Of a stretch of DNA of 64,000 nt, positions 31,686 through 36,057 are shown in pieces. Location of the stretch: NCBI RefSeq assembly GCF_040675875.1, contig NZ_JBEGII010000001.1, forward strand, positions 248,001-312,000, given 5' to 3'. The notes under the pieces were generated by a model. That model was not told the origin of the DNA, ran no database searches, and was given only the letters and a program-made list of their open reading frames with translations. Every line of letters begins with the position of its first letter. Positions within the stretch are counted from its first letter, which is position 1. Position numbers and translations under genes: made by a program. Origin of the DNA: Microbacterium sp. LWO12-1.2 (GTDB lineage: Bacteria > Actinomycetota > Actinomycetes > Actinomycetales > Microbacteriaceae).

Positions 31686-32678
31686 TCAGGCCGTCGCCTC
31701 GTCTGCGACGGCGACGATGCTGCCGACCAGCTGAGCGATCTCCTCGGAGCCCAGCGCGAGAGGACCCGCCTGCGAACCGTCTGTGCCGATCAGCGCGGCG
31801 ACCGGCCGCGCGGGCCCGATCTCCAGTGCTCCGCCCAGCGAACCTCCGATGTCGAGCGCGAAGCGGGCCCCCGCTGGCAGTTCGTGGGTGGGAAGTGCAG
31901 TCGTGGAGCCGCTGGAGGCGCGCTGGAGGACGTAGATCTCGACGAGCGAGCCGAGGGCGCTCTGCGCGTGGATGAGGGTGTCGAGGGCCGTGGCGCACGC
32001 GTGACAGCCTGCCGACACGAACAGGAGCAACCGTGCGCGGGAGCCCGGTGCGAGAACGTCGACGACCTCAGAGGTCGCAGGGATGAGCACAGCACCATCG
32101 CCGCGCGCGATCGAGGAGGTGGCCGCCGGAGCGGTCGACGACGCGCGTGCGATCGACCAGACGCCGAGCGCGATCAGGATCGACGCCGCGAGCGCGCCGA
32201 AGGATCCGCTCGCCGCTGACTCCGAGCCCAGCAGCAGGGGCACACCCGTGGATCGGCCGGTGATGGCGAGGAAGAGCACGGCGGGAGTGAAGAGGAGGAA
32301 GGCCACGGACGTCAGAACGGCGTTGCGGACGATCAGGCGGGGGCCGATCGCTGCGGGAAGCCACTCGCCGAAGCATCCGCAATCCGCCGTGGCACCTATG
32401 CGGTGGGCGCGGATCACGGCGATCAGGAGACCGCTCGTGAGGAGGAGGGCCGCGCCGGACGCGGCGACGAAGAGCCACCCGGTCGTCACGACGAGCGCGA
32501 TCGCCACGATCGCCTCGAGAAGGATGAGCGCGGTGGCCGCGGCCTGTGTGCGGGCGATGGGGATCCGCAGCGCGTCGAAGGCGGCAGCCCCTCGGTCGGG
32601 AGCGCGGAGCTTGCCGATCGCGCTCGCGGCGAAGACCGCTGCGAGGAACACCGCCGCAGGGAGGAGGAACGCGCTCAT
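31686..32678 (-). CDS. MauE/DoxX-like membrane protein fused to a thioredoxin-like domain
   Basis: 330 residues. Residues 1-180 hold five to six membrane helices with the MauE signature ATADCGCFGEWLP at about 96-108. The C-terminal ~130 residues form a thioredoxin/TlpA-like part with LLFVSAGCHACATALDTLI, a CxxC active site. The MauE and MauD-like functions, electron transfer and disulfide chemistry outside the membrane, are separate proteins in methylamine utilisation but joined here. It is transcribed after the Tat-exported two-cysteine protein, though a hairpin stands between them, so a role in that protein's disulfide is an inference. Confidence 0.72.
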   Translation of the reverse strand: MSAFLLPAAVFLAAVFAASAIGKLRAPDRGAAAFDALRIPIARTQAAATALILLEAIVAIALVVTTGWLFVAASGAALLLTSGLLIAVIRAHRIGATADCGCFGEWLPAAIGPRLIVRNAVLTSVAFLLFTPAVLFLAITGRSTGVPLLLGSESAASGSFGALAASILIALGVWSIARASSTAPAATSSIARGDGAVLIPATSEVVDVLAPGSRARLLLFVSAGCHACATALDTLIHAQSALGSLVEIYVLQRASSGSTTALPTHELPAGARFALDIGGSLGGALEIGPARPVAALIGTDGSQAGPLALGSEEIAQLVGSIVAVADEATA

Positions 32679-32701
32679 GTGATCATCATCCTGGATTGCG
32701 A

Positions 32702-32733
32702 GAGCGGCCGGCCCCCGAGGGGCGCGGCCGCTC
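32702..32733 (-). terminator. Hairpin after the Tat-exported protein gene
   Basis: GAGCGGCC (32702-32709) pairs with GGCCGCTC (32726-32733), with GCCCC/GGGGC extending the stem inside. It lies 35 nt downstream of the stop of the minus-strand gene at 32768 and before the ATG of the MauE-like gene. There is no T-run. Confidence 0.55.
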
Positions 32734-32767
32734 CGTTGGCCCGAAGGCTCAGGTCGTGCGGGGTGGG

Positions 32768-33277
32768 TCAGGATGCGGAGCAGAGGATCAGCGTCGAGCT
32801 GACGGAGCCCGTGGTCTTCGCGCCGGTGGCGACGTAGCCGGCCGGCAGGCTGACGACCTCGTTGAGCGTGAACGCGACGGAGATCGACAGCGTGGTGCGG
32901 AAGTCGATCGTCGCTCCGGCCGGAAGCTCAGACGTCAGGGTGATCTGACGGCTGGTCGGCGACAGAACGGAGACGTTGGCGGTGCCGCCGGTGACGCTGA
33001 ACACACCGATGTTGGCGATGCCACTACCGGTGATAATGACGGTGGTGCCGACGGGCAGCGGCGCCGTGGCGCTCGCGGTGAGCGTGAAGCCCGGGCCGAT
33101 GAGGCCGAGGACGCCACAGGTACCCGCGGTGGTGAACGCGCCGAGCTCCACGTCGCCACCAGAAGCGGCAGCGAGCGGCGTCGCGACGGCGGCGGCGATG
33201 ACGGGGACGGACCAGGCTGCGCCCTTGACGATGGTGCGGCGCGAGAAGCCCTTGTCCTTCTGGATTTCTTCGGTCAT
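32768..33277 (-). CDS. Tat-exported small beta-rich protein, unknown function
   Basis: 169 residues. A twin-arginine signal is clear: FSRRTIVKGAAWSVPVIAAA, with cleavage expected near ATPLAAASGG (about residue 38-40). The mature part of about 130 residues is rich in Gly, Thr, Ser and Val, looks all-beta, and has just two cysteines (GTCGVLG and LILCSAS), which could form a disulfide. I know no function for the family. The ATG follows GAGGGAGAA. Its 5' region carries an operator, a -10 box and a conserved leader that are all duplicated 1.44 kb away before a decayed paralogue. Confidence 0.85.
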   Translation of the reverse strand: MTEEIQKDKGFSRRTIVKGAAWSVPVIAAAVATPLAAASGGDVELGAFTTAGTCGVLGLIGPGFTLTASATAPLPVGTTVIITGSGIANIGVFSVTGGTANVSVLSPTSRQITLTSELPAGATIDFRTTLSISVAFTLNEVVSLPAGYVATGAKTTGSVSSTLILCSAS

Positions 33278-33317
33278 TCGAGTGTTCTCCCTCTAGATGC
33301 AGATGCGGTTTCCCGCT

Positions 33318-33360
33318 GTGTCGTGAAGAGGCGACACGTTCGTCTGCATCCCCCAGGAGC
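33318..33360 (-). promoter_or_regulatory. Conserved 5' leader element, copy A (block plus hairpin)
   Basis: In the transcribed direction the leader has GCTCCTGGGGGATGCAGACG (33360-33341) then a hairpin GTGTCG-8 nt-CGACAC (33337-33318). The 20-nt block is identical in copy B at 34779-34798, where the hairpin arms are TGTCGT/ACGACA. The block ends exactly 64 nt from the start codon in both. It could be a structured regulatory leader. Confidence 0.65.
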
Positions 33361-33374
33361 CTCTCCGTGACCTC

Positions 33375-33380
33375 AAGTTA
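33375..33380 (-). promoter_or_regulatory. -10 box TAACTT of the Tat-exported protein gene
   Basis: TAACTT on the minus strand inside the shared block CTAACNTGAG. A start near 33368 would give a leader of about 90 nt. The same box (TAACGT) is at the same place in copy B. No good -35 hexamer is visible, as expected for an activator-dependent promoter. Confidence 0.5.
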
Positions 33381-33421
33381 GGTCGGGGAGAAGGGGCGAG
33401 AACATCGTTTTGAGGAACTCA

Positions 33422-33454
33422 GCGCAGTGTGCGCTCAACCTGCGCGCACTGTGC
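33422..33454 (-). promoter_or_regulatory. Candidate AraC-type operator, copy A (direct repeats)
   Basis: GCGCAGTGTGC (33422-33432) and GCGCACTGTGC (33444-33454) are direct repeats 22 bp apart, two helical turns, and an inner GTGCGC/GCGCAC palindrome is also present. Relative to the predicted start they lie at about -54 to -86, a usual site for an AraC-family activator. The AraC-type gene ends just beside it at 33472. Confidence 0.55.
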
Positions 33455-33471
33455 TTTTCGGCGACGATCCG

Positions 33472-34476
33472 TCAGGCGCGACGAGCGGCGCGAAGAGCGC
33501 GCGGAGTCGTCTCGTAGGCCTCATCGAGGGCTCGGCGCAGACTCATCGGAGAGTTGAATCCGGCACGCTGCGCGATCTGATCGATGCTGAGCACGTCGTA
33601 GCGGCTGTCGACGAGAAGGGAATGGGCGAGACGCGCCCGTTGCCGCCGGATCTCACCGGCGACGCTGTTCCCCGACTCTGAGAAGACCAGTTGCAGCTGG
33701 CGGAGAGAAGACTGCACCTCGTGTGCCACGCGGGACGGGTTGAGGCGAGGGTCGCCGCACTGCTGGGCGATCACGGCGATGGCGCGCTCCCGCAGCACGG
33801 TGCGCGGTGAGCCCTGTCCCGTGACGGCACCGATACGGTCGAGCAGCACGGCGCCACTCATCTCCATCACGAGCTGTTCGATCGCGTACTGCTCGATGGC
33901 GGATGCGCGGTTCTCGGTGTCGAGCAGGCTGCCGATGAACCTCTGCATCGACGAGTCGAGAAGTCGTCGATCGGCGTAGGTGCTCGCCTCGGCAGGCAGC
34001 GCGGGAACGAACGACGCGATCGCCGCCCGGGGGACGAGTGCGGCGATGAACCGCCACGTGCCCGACCAGCGCAGGCGACGGGTGATGCCCTGCGGGGCGA
34101 TGACCAGACCGCTCTCGGACTCGACCCAGGGCTCGTCGCCGAGCTTGGACCACAGGGCCTGCGCTTCGACGAACGCGAAGACCGCATGGTCGGGGTACGC
34201 CGAGGCGGTGTCGACATGGAGTTCCGCCGTGGAGCCGTTGAGTCCGAGGAGCAGGACTCCGCCCGATGTGCGTTCTCGCGAGCGGAGCCCGGGGCGGTCT
34301 CCGATCCGACGGATGCCGTGGCGGGACAGCTCCCGATCGTCGATCAGTCGAGCGTCTGAGTGATCCACGGGACCCCGTTCCTCAAGGTATCGGCGTACGG
34401 TAGCGGCGTCCGGTGCCGGCGGCGGATACCTGGTCTCCGATCCCCAGTGCCCATGACCTCGCGTGAGCGCTCCCAT
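33472..34476 (-). CDS. AraC-family transcriptional regulator
   Basis: 334 residues. The N-terminal ~210 residues resemble the AraC_binding_2 type sensor domain. The C-terminal ~105 residues are a double helix-turn-helix: NPSRVAHEVQSSLRQLQLVFSE and LSIDQIAQRAGFNSPMSLRRALDEAYETTPRALRAARR. It lies between two copies of the same direct-repeat operator and promoter module and is the natural candidate to bind them. The ligand is unknown; the sensor domain has no signature I can read. The start at 34476 follows a weak purine stretch and is the least certain end. Confidence 0.85.
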   Translation of the reverse strand: MGALTRGHGHWGSETRYPPPAPDAATVRRYLEERGPVDHSDARLIDDRELSRHGIRRIGDRPGLRSRERTSGGVLLLGLNGSTAELHVDTASAYPDHAVFAFVEAQALWSKLGDEPWVESESGLVIAPQGITRRLRWSGTWRFIAALVPRAAIASFVPALPAEASTYADRRLLDSSMQRFIGSLLDTENRASAIEQYAIEQLVMEMSGAVLLDRIGAVTGQGSPRTVLRERAIAVIAQQCGDPRLNPSRVAHEVQSSLRQLQLVFSESGNSVAGEIRRQRARLAHSLLVDSRYDVLSIDQIAQRAGFNSPMSLRRALDEAYETTPRALRAARRA

Positions 34477-34599
34477 GGCAATTCTGCTGGATTGAATGTC
34501 GGTTCAGTTCTGATTCTGAGGTGCGAGGCAGGGGCTGTCAACGCCCGGGCCTCCGTGCGTCGCATGAGTGCGTAGTCAACGAAACCCGCCGCCGGAGCC

Positions 34600-34715
34600 G
34601 CTGCGGTACGCGCGGCGGAGGTGTGTCGAGCATTGAGCCTGATCGGGAAGGAAAAGCGCGTATCGGCACTGGTACGGCGCGAGCTGCTCTTCGGCGTCGA
34701 GGCCTTTTCATTCAT
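34600..34715 (-). pseudogene. Relic of a second Tat-exported protein gene
   Basis: From the ATG at 34715 the first 15 codons read MNEKASTPKSSSRRT and align without gaps to MTEEIQKDKGFSRRT of the gene at 33277, including the twin arginines. Beyond this the hydrophobic core is lost: SADTRFSFPIRLNARH replaces IVKGAAWSVPVIAAA, with only FSFPI/WSVPV as an echo. The frame then drifts into unrelated sequence towards the AraC gene. The promoter, leader block and spacing upstream match those of the intact gene, so this is a paralogue that lost its body. The 3' limit given is approximate. Confidence 0.6.
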
Positions 34716-34754
34716 GCCGCGCTTCTCCGGGTCGGTATGCTCGCAGGTTCGAGA

Positions 34755-34798
34755 TGTCGTGGTGAAACGACACGATTCCGTCTGCATCCCCCAGGAGC
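34755..34798 (-). promoter_or_regulatory. Conserved 5' leader element, copy B
   Basis: The block GCTCCTGGGGGATGCAGACG (34798-34779) is identical to copy A and is followed by the perfect hairpin TGTCGT-6 nt-ACGACA (34772-34755). It stands 64 nt from the ATG of the relic, as in copy A. Confidence 0.65.
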
Positions 34799-34812
34799 TT
34801 CACCTGCCGCTC

Positions 34813-34818
34813 ACGTTA
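34813..34818 (-). promoter_or_regulatory. -10 box TAACGT of copy B
   Basis: Lies in the block CTAACGTGAG that matches copy A and again predicts a leader of about 90 nt. It would fire into the relic and the AraC gene, so it may now serve the regulator itself. Confidence 0.45.
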
Positions 34819-34859
34819 GAGGCGACGTCGGGGCAATGTGTATCGAACCACGATTTCGC

Positions 34860-34892
34860 GCGCTGTGTGCGTCAAATCTGCGCGGATTGTGC
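34860..34892 (-). promoter_or_regulatory. Candidate AraC-type operator, copy B
   Basis: GCGCTGTGTGC (34860-34870) and GCGCggaTTGTGC (34880-34892) repeat the half-sites of copy A, at the same -54 to -86 distance from the predicted start. The outer edge is 68 bp from the start codon of the divergent kinase-PqqD gene, so one operator could control both directions. No further feature is visible in the 34477-34959 gap beyond these and the relic. Confidence 0.5.
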
Positions 34893-34946
34893 GGAGCGCC
34901 ATGCGTGCGACGCGGACGGGTGACGGGGAGTTCGGCGGTTGCTGGC

Positions 34947-34952
34947 TAGGCT
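34947..34952 (+). promoter_or_regulatory. -10 box TAGGCT of a leaderless gene
   Basis: TAGGCT ends 7 nt before the ATG at 34960, with no ribosome binding site. Confidence 0.5.
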
Positions 34953-34959
34953 GAGAGCC

Positions 34960-36057
34960 ATGTCTGATCGCTTCCTCGTCAGCGCGGTCGGCGCGGTGGT
35001 CGCCGTCGATACCGCCTCACGCGACGGATCCTTCCAGCGTCGCGCGCGTGCGGCCTGGCGCGATGCGCTGATCACCGGGGACGCCACCCCGGATGCGACG
35101 GTCGCGGTGCGCGACGCGGTCAGCGACGATGAAGCACTGTCGTTGCTCTCGACCGACGTCACCCTGGCCGCGCTCTCGCACCGACAGGGAGAACAGGTCT
35201 GGATGCTGCACGCCGCGGGCCTCGCCGACGACTCCGGTCGGGTCGTCGTGCTGAGCGCGGCTTCCGGTACCGGAAAGACCACCGCGGCTCGCCACCTCTC
35301 GCGGCACTATGCGTACGTGAGCGACGAGACGGTCGCGATCGAGAGCTCCGGCGCGGTGGTGCCGTACCGCAAGCCCTTGTCGATAATCGAGCCGGATGCG
35401 GTGCACAAGGTGCAGACGGCGCTGTCGAGCATCGACGGCGGACGCGCGCTTCCCGATCGACTCAGAGTGGCGAAGATCGTGGTGCTCGATCGGACCGCCG
35501 ATGGCCCCCTCGAACCGGTGGTCGATGAACTGGATGTCGCGACAGCGCTCGAATTGCTGGCGCCGCAGAGCAGCTACCTCGGCCTTGTTCCCGCACCGCT
35601 GCAGCTCATCGACGCGCTTCTCACCGCGACGGGGGGAGCCGTGCGGCTGCGCTACCGGGAGGTGTCCACCCTGGACACCGTCATCGGCACACTGATCGCG
35701 GCCGAACCCGCAGCCGTTCCGCCGATCCCCTCGTCAGGCACCGAGATCGACCAGTCCGCGATCGACGCTCCGGGAGGGACATATGCGCGGGCGGCTGCCG
35801 TCGATGCGCTGGATCTGGGCGACGGCCTTCTCGCGGTGCTCCAGCAGTCCAGCGGGGGAGGGCGCGTCAACATCCTCGACGGCATCGGTCCCGCGATCTG
35901 GGCTGCGGCGAACGCCTCCGAACTCGACGAGATCGTGCGGGCCGTCATCGACGCGCACGGTGCACCCGAGGGGCTCGATGCGGCGCAGATGGTCGCCTCG
36001 GCCGCGCAACAGCTCGTCGACGACGGACTGCTGCGGCAGACGCCGGCTCAGGCCTGA
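34960..36057 (+). CDS. HPr-kinase-like P-loop kinase fused to a PqqD-type peptide-binding domain
   Basis: 365 residues. A kinase half (about 85-260) has the Walker A motif SAASGTGKTTAARHL at about 100-114 and YAYVSDETVAIE, which matches the acidic SDD/SDE motif of HprK. The last ~100 residues, from DLGDGLLAVLQQSSGGGRVNIL to a conserved AAQQLVDDGLL, look like a PqqD/RRE winged-helix domain. HprK-like kinases with separate PqqD partners are known near exopolysaccharide genes, and an HprK homologue phosphorylates a lasso peptide. The joined form suggests phosphorylation of a peptide or protein that the PqqD part binds. I chose the ATG at 34960 because of the -10 box 7 nt upstream; a TTG at 34939 is less likely. 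Its end overlaps the convergent BY-kinase by 10 nt. Confidence 0.72.
   Translation: MSDRFLVSAVGAVVAVDTASRDGSFQRRARAAWRDALITGDATPDATVAVRDAVSDDEALSLLSTDVTLAALSHRQGEQVWMLHAAGLADDSGRVVVLSAASGTGKTTAARHLSRHYAYVSDETVAIESSGAVVPYRKPLSIIEPDAVHKVQTALSSIDGGRALPDRLRVAKIVVLDRTADGPLEPVVDELDVATALELLAPQSSYLGLVPAPLQLIDALLTATGGAVRLRYREVSTLDTVIGTLIAAEPAAVPPIPSSGTEIDQSAIDAPGGTYARAAAVDALDLGDGLLAVLQQSSGGGRVNILDGIGPAIWAAANASELDEIVRAVIDAHGAPEGLDAAQMVASAAQQLVDDGLLRQTPAQA

Follow-up and report, generated by a model that had tools for sequence, protein, structure and literature searches.

Translational riboswitches such as SAM-III/SMK and the preQ1 classes hide the Shine-Dalgarno sequence of the gene that they control. 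At the level of transcription, AraC/XylS regulators bind tandem direct repeats that precede a poor −35 and whose two half-sites are separated by two helical turns. Pairing of the Shine-Dalgarno sequence is reportedly also at work in the thermometer of lcrF. This Yersinia RNA thermometer is linked to an AraC-type gene (PMC3280987). For actinobacteria, a comparative search in Corynebacterium gave a leader motif, ilvB-II, which is ascribed to a leader peptide (PMC10272879). Here we analyse a leader found twice in a 64,000-nt stretch of Microbacterium sp. LWO12-1.2 (NZ_JBEGII010000001.1, positions 248,001-312,000; the whole stretch is called the window), once before a gene for a protein with a twin-arginine translocation (Tat) signal, and once upstream of the neighbouring AraC-type regulator gene, araC. 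The 5′ end of this leader is predicted to pair both with a hairpin loop and with the Shine-Dalgarno sequence.

Conservation of the leader and its link to araC

A sequence-only reading had presented the locus as a duplicated module, and both copies do share operator, −10 box, block and spacing. The order half-sites, TAACNT box, 20-nt block and start codon is seen twice on the minus strand, where all features given here lie. Those of copy 1, with the two genes concerned, are as follows:

33415..33454, minus strand: operator copy 1, AraC-type; half-sites 33422-33432 and 33444-33454 (plus-strand numbering), 22 nt apart, exact match to the consensus
33375..33380, minus strand: −10 box TAACTT
33360..33366, minus strand: 5′ pseudoknot strand GGAGAGG, pairing with loop 33331-33325
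33356..33359, minus strand: anti-Shine-Dalgarno CUCC, adjoining the pseudoknot strand; predicted partner 33290-33287
33341..33360, minus strand: 20-nt block GCTCCTGGGGGATGCAGACG, identical to 34779-34798
33318..33337, minus strand: hairpin GUGUCG-CCUCUUCA-CGACAC, whose loop holds the 3′ pseudoknot strand
33305..33316, minus strand: hairpin GCGG-GAAA-CCGC with a GNRA loop, copy 1 only
33296..33350, minus strand: enclosing stem GAUGCAGA / UCUGCAUC (outer ends), arms 33350-33343 and 33303-33296, from the minimum free energy (MFE) fold
33287..33292, minus strand: Shine-Dalgarno AGGGAG of the Tat-signal gene, 9 nt 5′ of the ATG, predicted to be partly paired with CUCC
32768..33277, minus strand: predicted Tat-signal exported protein, 169 aa, mature domain predicted all-beta
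33472..34374, minus strand: AraC-type regulator, HTH_18, GTG start aligned across relatives

As had been stated, the block is identical at 33360-33341 and 34798-34779, and the half-sites GCGCANTGTGC, exact at 33422 and 33444 and with one mismatch each at 34860 and 34882, keep a 22-nt spacing and lie at about −54 to −86, assuming a start a few nt after the −10 box. The ATG stands 64 nt past the block in both window copies (33277 and 34715), but this distance is only roughly conserved across relatives, with the start codon at +82 to +85 from the block start in copy 1 and at +73 to +83 in copy 2. The 4.1-Mb genome contains two exact copies of the block, both in the window, and three further places within 3 mismatches, each with 3. 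The chance of a common exact 20-mer within 5 kb is, by a rough estimate, ~1e-5.

A covariance model built from 8 copy-1 leaders matched 25 of 366 Microbacterium genomes at E<=0.01, 20 of them strongly (E<1e-20). The 5 weak matches (G082, G468, G491, G084 and G125, E 8e-4 to 8e-3) had no block, Tat or AraC gene nearby by a simple pattern check. Among 299 genomes of the family, the strong matches were limited to our own genome and G066, both Microbacterium, with weak ones in G608 and G257. A search of 199 family genomes for the block at <=2 mismatches found exact copies in our own genome only, and 8 other genomes had one 2-mismatch place each, about the control frequency (7 genomes). With the 191-nt copy-1 region as a DNA query, 9 of the 149 genus genomes searched gave a match; besides our own, 7 matched nearly the whole of it at 79-84% identity. 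G054, a genome without the leader, matched over 25 nt at 96%, in the operator part of copy 1 only (G054:C1:1583569-1583593), and a simple pattern check found no Tat or AraC gene near this place.

A pattern scan of GTDB r220 species yielded 23 stretches, 14 in Microbacterium (hosts include Microbacterium oxydans, M. sufflavum, M. paraoxydans and other Microbacterium strains) and 9 from other phyla. None of these 9 shows a Tat-signal gene, and the two frames flagged by a loose RR filter do not look Tat-like. With a looser pattern, 41 of the 366 genus genomes matched, namely the 20, G096 and G114 (at araC/Tat loci) and 19 others, which exceed the control (5 genomes with control matches). Sixteen of the 30 looser-pattern loci examined lie away from araC and Tat genes; the filter used found no Tat-signal gene after any of the 16, and 14 cross an open frame. 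We take them as mostly coding sequence. As far as searched, the leader RNA is found only in Microbacterium.

A lack of block, hairpin and spacing in related genomes had been set beforehand as what would refute the reading. Copy 1 is kept in 20 genomes and copy 2, upstream of araC, in 13 of these, being absent in 7. The association with AraC-type and Tat-signal genes was also borne out, each of the 20 genomes having both. The copy-1 leader precedes the Tat-signal gene in every case, and an AraC orthologue stands directly upstream of the two in 20/20, with 67-96% identity in the other 19 (the closest one named, that of G425, is 96% identical). A site matching the operator consensus with 0-1 mismatch is present at this locus in all 20, and 11 sites were aligned.

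The regulator has a C-terminal AraC-type HTH (PF12833 above cut-off, PF00165 just below). In our own genome only the two window operators are within 3 mismatches, with one control match, so the regulator looks local. The nearby Tat-signal gene is probably switched by it. A new type of operator had been envisaged; this part is not supported, as 22-nt tandem repeats upstream of a weak −35 look ordinary for AraC proteins, and what the sequence offers is an ordinary-looking operator that co-occurs with its regulator. Nor is a single indivisible module supported. Of 4 genomes inspected among the 7 lacking copy 2, three (G005, G066, G116) keep operator-like repeats and a −10 box upstream of araC with no leader, and at a third locus of G060, on contig 15 (L188, G060:C15:235012-235110), operator and −10 box are followed at once by the GTG start of a Tat-signal gene, which is probably a third target, one that has no leader. 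Operator and leader are thus parts that can occur separately. Homologues of the Tat gene elsewhere in G096, G111 and G075 have neither operator nor leader (that of G053 could not be placed).

Fourteen further genomes carry only remoter AraC homologues. We examined 20 remoter araC loci, from 13 of these 14 genomes and from paralogues in leader genomes. Four of them (G500, G096, G004, G114) have a Tat-signal gene immediately after araC, and the second loci of G096 and G425 have one 1.2-1.6 kb away on the opposite strand. Of the four, two have a diverged leader before the Tat gene, with 6/7 pseudoknot pairs in G096 and 4/7 in G114.

Fold of the leader and its proposed action

For the fold, we used 33 leaders (20 copy 1, 13 copy 2) collected by <=3 mismatches to the block. 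Pseudoknot pairing was not demanded in this collection, though the sequence of both strands is part of the covariance model and of the DNA query. With the model, 32 of the 33 could be aligned at E<=0.01, the exception being the window's own copy 2.

The pseudoknot joins, over 7 bp, the strand just 5′ of CUCC and the loop of the main hairpin, partners that are ~30-40 nt apart. Over the 33 leaders, 224 of 231 cells are paired, and the best of 12 wrong registers reaches 157/231. The 14 distinct strand pairs give 92/98 paired positions, where shuffling yields 84.3 on average (p 0.0018, with shuffles that take no account of relatedness). Both sides change together at 4 of the 7 positions (GC/AU; AU/GC; AU/UA/CG; GC/AU), and leaders pair better with their own strand (6.9 and 6.6 of 7) than across copies (5.3 and 5.7 of 7). 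As controls, the 9 matches outside Microbacterium pair at 1-6 of 7 positions (mean 3.3), compared to 5-7 inside, with 7 at 15 of 19 places, and the 16 genus loci away from araC/Tat pair at 0-6 of 7. A TAnnnT box is present 7-9 nt 5′ of the pseudoknot strand in 33/33 leaders, and by prediction this strand begins no more than a few nt from the 5′ end of the mRNA.

For CUCC, pairing inside the Shine-Dalgarno purine tract is predicted at P>0.9 in 29/33 leaders (19/20 in copy 1, 10/13 in copy 2). Counting pairing anywhere downstream, the score is 30/33, compared to 92/660 when the middle is shuffled. Since CUCC follows the pseudoknot strand directly, with a gap of 0, the two helices could stack. 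The predicted copy-1 fold further contains the stem GAUGCAGA/UCUGCAUC, the hairpin GUGUCG/CGACAC and the GNRA hairpin, and has an MFE of −39.6 kcal/mol, with z −5.2 for the 91-nt window leader (z −1.2 for window copy 2). Over the 20 copy-1 leaders z averages −4.1, all being below −2.3. The GNRA loop is found in 19/20 copy-1 leaders in four versions (GAAA, GGAA, GCGA, GCAA), and one pair of its hairpin goes from GC to AU on both sides in 2 of 8 copy-1 leaders; the enclosing stem has no variation in the 8 counted. The first 15 bases of the block, GCTCCTGGGGGATGC, are identical in 33/33 leaders, which were chosen by their block.

The small hairpin noticed earlier is present, but is only one piece of this larger fold; pseudoknot, Shine-Dalgarno pairing and GNRA hairpin are additions to that description. 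Its other proposal, a structured leader that is an RNA element of no listed family, is supported: Rfam 15 gave 0 matches at E<=5 across 32000-36000, and none at the gathering threshold for the window. No terminator-like site was found inside either leader. With a conserved fold before the same gene, compensatory changes and a predicted platform for Shine-Dalgarno pairing, the leader has the marks of a structured cis-regulatory RNA, and behaves as RNA, not as a DNA site or a short ORF.

We propose, with a probability of about 65%, a local control in two layers, where AraC sets transcription and the leader restrains translation until a signal opens the leader RNA. The AraC-type protein, bound to the tandem repeats that lie at about −54 to −86, would set transcription both of the region of its own gene and of the Tat-signal gene, the MauE neighbour of the latter perhaps included. 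The transcript, beginning a few bases at most from the pseudoknot strand, would fold into the conserved RNA: seven bases of the 5′ end would pair with the hairpin loop and the next ones, CUCC, with the Shine-Dalgarno sequence, so that one 5′ strand would form two adjoining helices, held in place by the closed stem with its GNRA hairpin (copy 1). Translation would be restrained until a signal broke either the pseudoknot or the CUCC helix and so made the ribosome site accessible; candidates for this signal are a ligand, a protein, a small RNA or RNA processing. In this scheme, what the computation shows is conservation, pseudoknot covariation, the predicted pairing and the joint occurrence with araC and operator; we infer where transcription starts, that AraC binds and with what sign, that the helices stack coaxially and that translation is repressed. 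That the leader represents a translational switch of a new class, sensing a ligand or signal, in which one 5′ strand both senses and represses, in series with AraC, as a two-input gate for an exported protein, is a more tentative and rather doubtful extension.

Several observations weigh against the two-layer control. The purine tract is on average ~42% (copy 1) or ~30% (copy 2) unpaired, meaning a partial cover; pairing of CUCC fails in copy 2 of G088 and G358 and is weaker in that of G425 (0.68). The pseudoknot is imperfect in 6 of 33 leaders (both copies of G088; copy 2 of G541, G542, G465 and G475), and its signal leans on the split between copies 1 and 2 and on few independent changes. 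Taken by themselves, the 8 copy-1 leaders have a covariation score no better than shuffles (77/500 at least as high), and in copy 1 there is hardly any variation in the enclosing stem, in the CUCC helix or in most of the main hairpin, so that these offer almost no covariation to judge by. Copy-2 leaders have a mean z of only −1.6 (G088 +1.6, G358 +0.4). Shine-Dalgarno pairing does not explain the unpaired UGGGG, fixed across leaders. At the remoter loci, no leader is evident in G500 and G004, although both have araC and a Tat gene; G114 folds differently (CUCC pairing at P 0.21; 0.62 in G096), and the operator pattern matches only G500 among the four, with 3 mismatches.

The second copy, the araC promoter and the exported protein

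Copy 2 and the remaining neighbours are laid out as follows:

34853..34892, minus strand: operator copy 2, AraC-type, 3 mismatches to the consensus
34813..34818, minus strand: −10 box TAACGT, copy 2
34725..34804, minus strand: leader copy 2, pseudoknot GGUGAAG / UUUCACC retained, remainder partly decayed
34344..34715, minus strand: relic of a second Tat-signal gene, open frame stopping 22 nt within araC
34513..34541, minus strand: sigma70-like promoter TTGACA-N17-CAGAAT, for araC, 10/12 positions matching
31686..32678, minus strand: MauE-domain membrane protein (PF07291), downstream of the Tat-signal gene

The gene behind copy 2 had been called a relic, rightly so, since copy 2 heads an intact Tat-signal protein of 214 aa in G475. 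In G541 and G542 it heads a 64-aa frame with a Tat-like start, and in the other genomes a relic or a fusion. The first 15 codons of the two window genes do give a gapless alignment, with identical residues at only 7 of the 15. Compared to G425, substitutions in the relic are distributed as 39/44/35 by codon position (9/3/82 for araC in the same comparison), which means that its frame is without coding constraint. Copy 2 appears to have arisen by duplication together with a second Tat-signal gene; its present role in the window is uncertain.

Whether copy 2 is a decaying leftover that has lost any present role, araC being expressed from its own TTGACA promoter, seems to us an even bet. The unconstrained relic, the absence of this leader in 7 of 20 genomes and its weak fold scores speak for it, and so does the promoter at 34541-34513, between relic and araC. 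This is the only promoter-like site in 32650-35000 (shuffles give 0.2 on average), and a TTGACA-type motif before araC is also visible in G425 and G358. The same interval holds a palindrome, TGAAYnnnnTTCAAT (34512-34497, minus strand), ~105-141 nt upstream of araC, found at <=3 mismatches in 12 of the 13 copy-2 genomes (not G088) and in none of the 7 without copy 2; it may be the site of another regulator. With a near-consensus promoter and a palindrome in this place, araC need not depend on copy 2. The leftover view is opposed by the intact block and by pseudoknot partners that still match 7/7 in the window, G425 and G358. The window copy-2 leader, whose enclosing stem was partly lost in its lineage, has a CUCC-Shine-Dalgarno pairing predicted at P 0.98. 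A further point against the leftover view is that in 6 of 13 genomes, 5 of which look like one lineage, the copy-2 frame ends on the start codon of araC (GTGA), and such an overlap would suit coupled translation. In 3 genomes the frame stops 22 nt inside araC; G541 and G542 reach araC only in a GTG-start frame, and G465 and G475 do not. Translational coupling of this frame to araC is a suggestion. A weak terminator-like hairpin (34670-34655, minus strand) lies in the relic between the copy-2 leader and araC; there are 3 terminator-like sites in the stretch examined, against 0.7 in shuffles.

The Tat signal reads SRRTIVKGAAW...ATPLAAAS, both arginines being invariant in 37 aligned sequences, and by this signal peptide the product is a predicted Tat substrate. 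The protein has no Pfam or NCBIfam match. Its family is wide in Microbacteriaceae and beyond (393 matches at E<=0.001, best 120 of 393 listed). The mature domain is predicted all-beta (mean pLDDT 76, signal peptide below 50), and fold matches are weak, the best being a Thermus protein of unknown function (E 4e-4, TM 0.42). The G060 group and G431 have a different mature domain behind the same leader and signal peptide, meaning that these two act as a cassette, which we suggest moves before differing mature domains. Loci with a swapped passenger are L032, L028, L071, L067, L070, L074 and L076, the last being the copy-2 gene. Downstream of the Tat gene, 7 of 8 genomes listed, own included, have an ORF of 329-351 aa with a similar N-terminus (the mechanical ORF of G088 is longer), and the MauE-domain gene is possibly co-transcribed with the Tat-signal gene. 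Between the two genes lies a GC-rich inverted repeat (32678-32768, minus strand) with no T run, by eye.

Other explanations and comparison with described systems

The pseudoknotted 5′ end and the stem might be a passive cap, protecting the mRNA from decay without any switch. The use of the predicted extreme 5′ end by the pseudoknot, the very stable fold (about −40 kcal/mol) and the good part of the Shine-Dalgarno tract predicted unpaired all suit this idea. Because the Shine-Dalgarno sequence is only partly covered, we lowered our confidence in the two-layer control and raised it for the cap, which we still judge unlikely: protection alone needs neither CUCC-Shine-Dalgarno pairing, seen in 29/33 leaders, nor a fixed unpaired UGGGG.

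We give little credit to the block being a DNA site, whether for a second protein or belonging to the AraC site. Pairing does not require as much constancy as the 5′ part of the block has (the 15 bases that are the same in 33 leaders), and the third operator locus of G060 works, if at all, without the leader. A DNA site leaves aside, however, the co-variation of pseudoknot partners ~30-40 nt apart, the GNRA loops and the Shine-Dalgarno pairing, and operator and block are separable. An RNA thermometer has a slighter chance still. It would be in line with a leader whose Shine-Dalgarno sequence is paired and which has a link to an AraC-type gene, as is known for lcrF (PMC3280987), but here CUCC pairs with GGAG with no U run opposite the Shine-Dalgarno, the stem is GC-rich and near −40 kcal/mol, and the multi-part pseudoknot has fixed unpaired bases; the U-rich or imperfect Shine-Dalgarno pairing that marks fourU and ROSE elements is lacking in the predicted fold. 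A regulatory short ORF opened by the ATG within GGGGGATGCAG is hardly credible and was rejected, its frame and peptide not being conserved: the window frame does read MQTNVSPLHDTAGNRICI and stop just 5′ of the Shine-Dalgarno (by eye), but 1-nt indels shift it between species, and in some it enters the main gene.

The RNA matches no family searched, and the open-access literature searched holds no description of it; a leader that hides the Shine-Dalgarno sequence is of a known general kind, and the layout is its own. If the leader is a switch, it would add, in Microbacterium, an RNA family whose 5′ end is common to a loop pseudoknot and an anti-Shine-Dalgarno helix. The module offers a clear target gene and what looks like a small regulon (two own-genome operators within 3 mismatches), and natural variants with the leader, with a decayed leader or leaderless make testing easy.

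Compared to AraC/XylS tandem operators, nothing is unusual here: half-site spacing, poor −35 and nearness to the regulator's own gene are alike. The ilvB-II motif is likewise an actinobacterial leader motif found by comparison in one genus, whereas the short frame is not conserved in ours. The lcrF thermometer differs in that our leader has no U-run pairing, is GC-rich and pseudoknotted, and stands in its better-kept copy before the target gene, not the regulator. The likeness to SAM-III/SMK and preQ1 riboswitches lies in a leader RNA with a pseudoknot or multi-way core and an anti-Shine-Dalgarno strand. Unlike them, the present leader has no Rfam match, it belongs to an AraC/Tat locus and not to a metabolic gene, and its 5′ strand is common to the loop pseudoknot and the anti-Shine-Dalgarno pairing.

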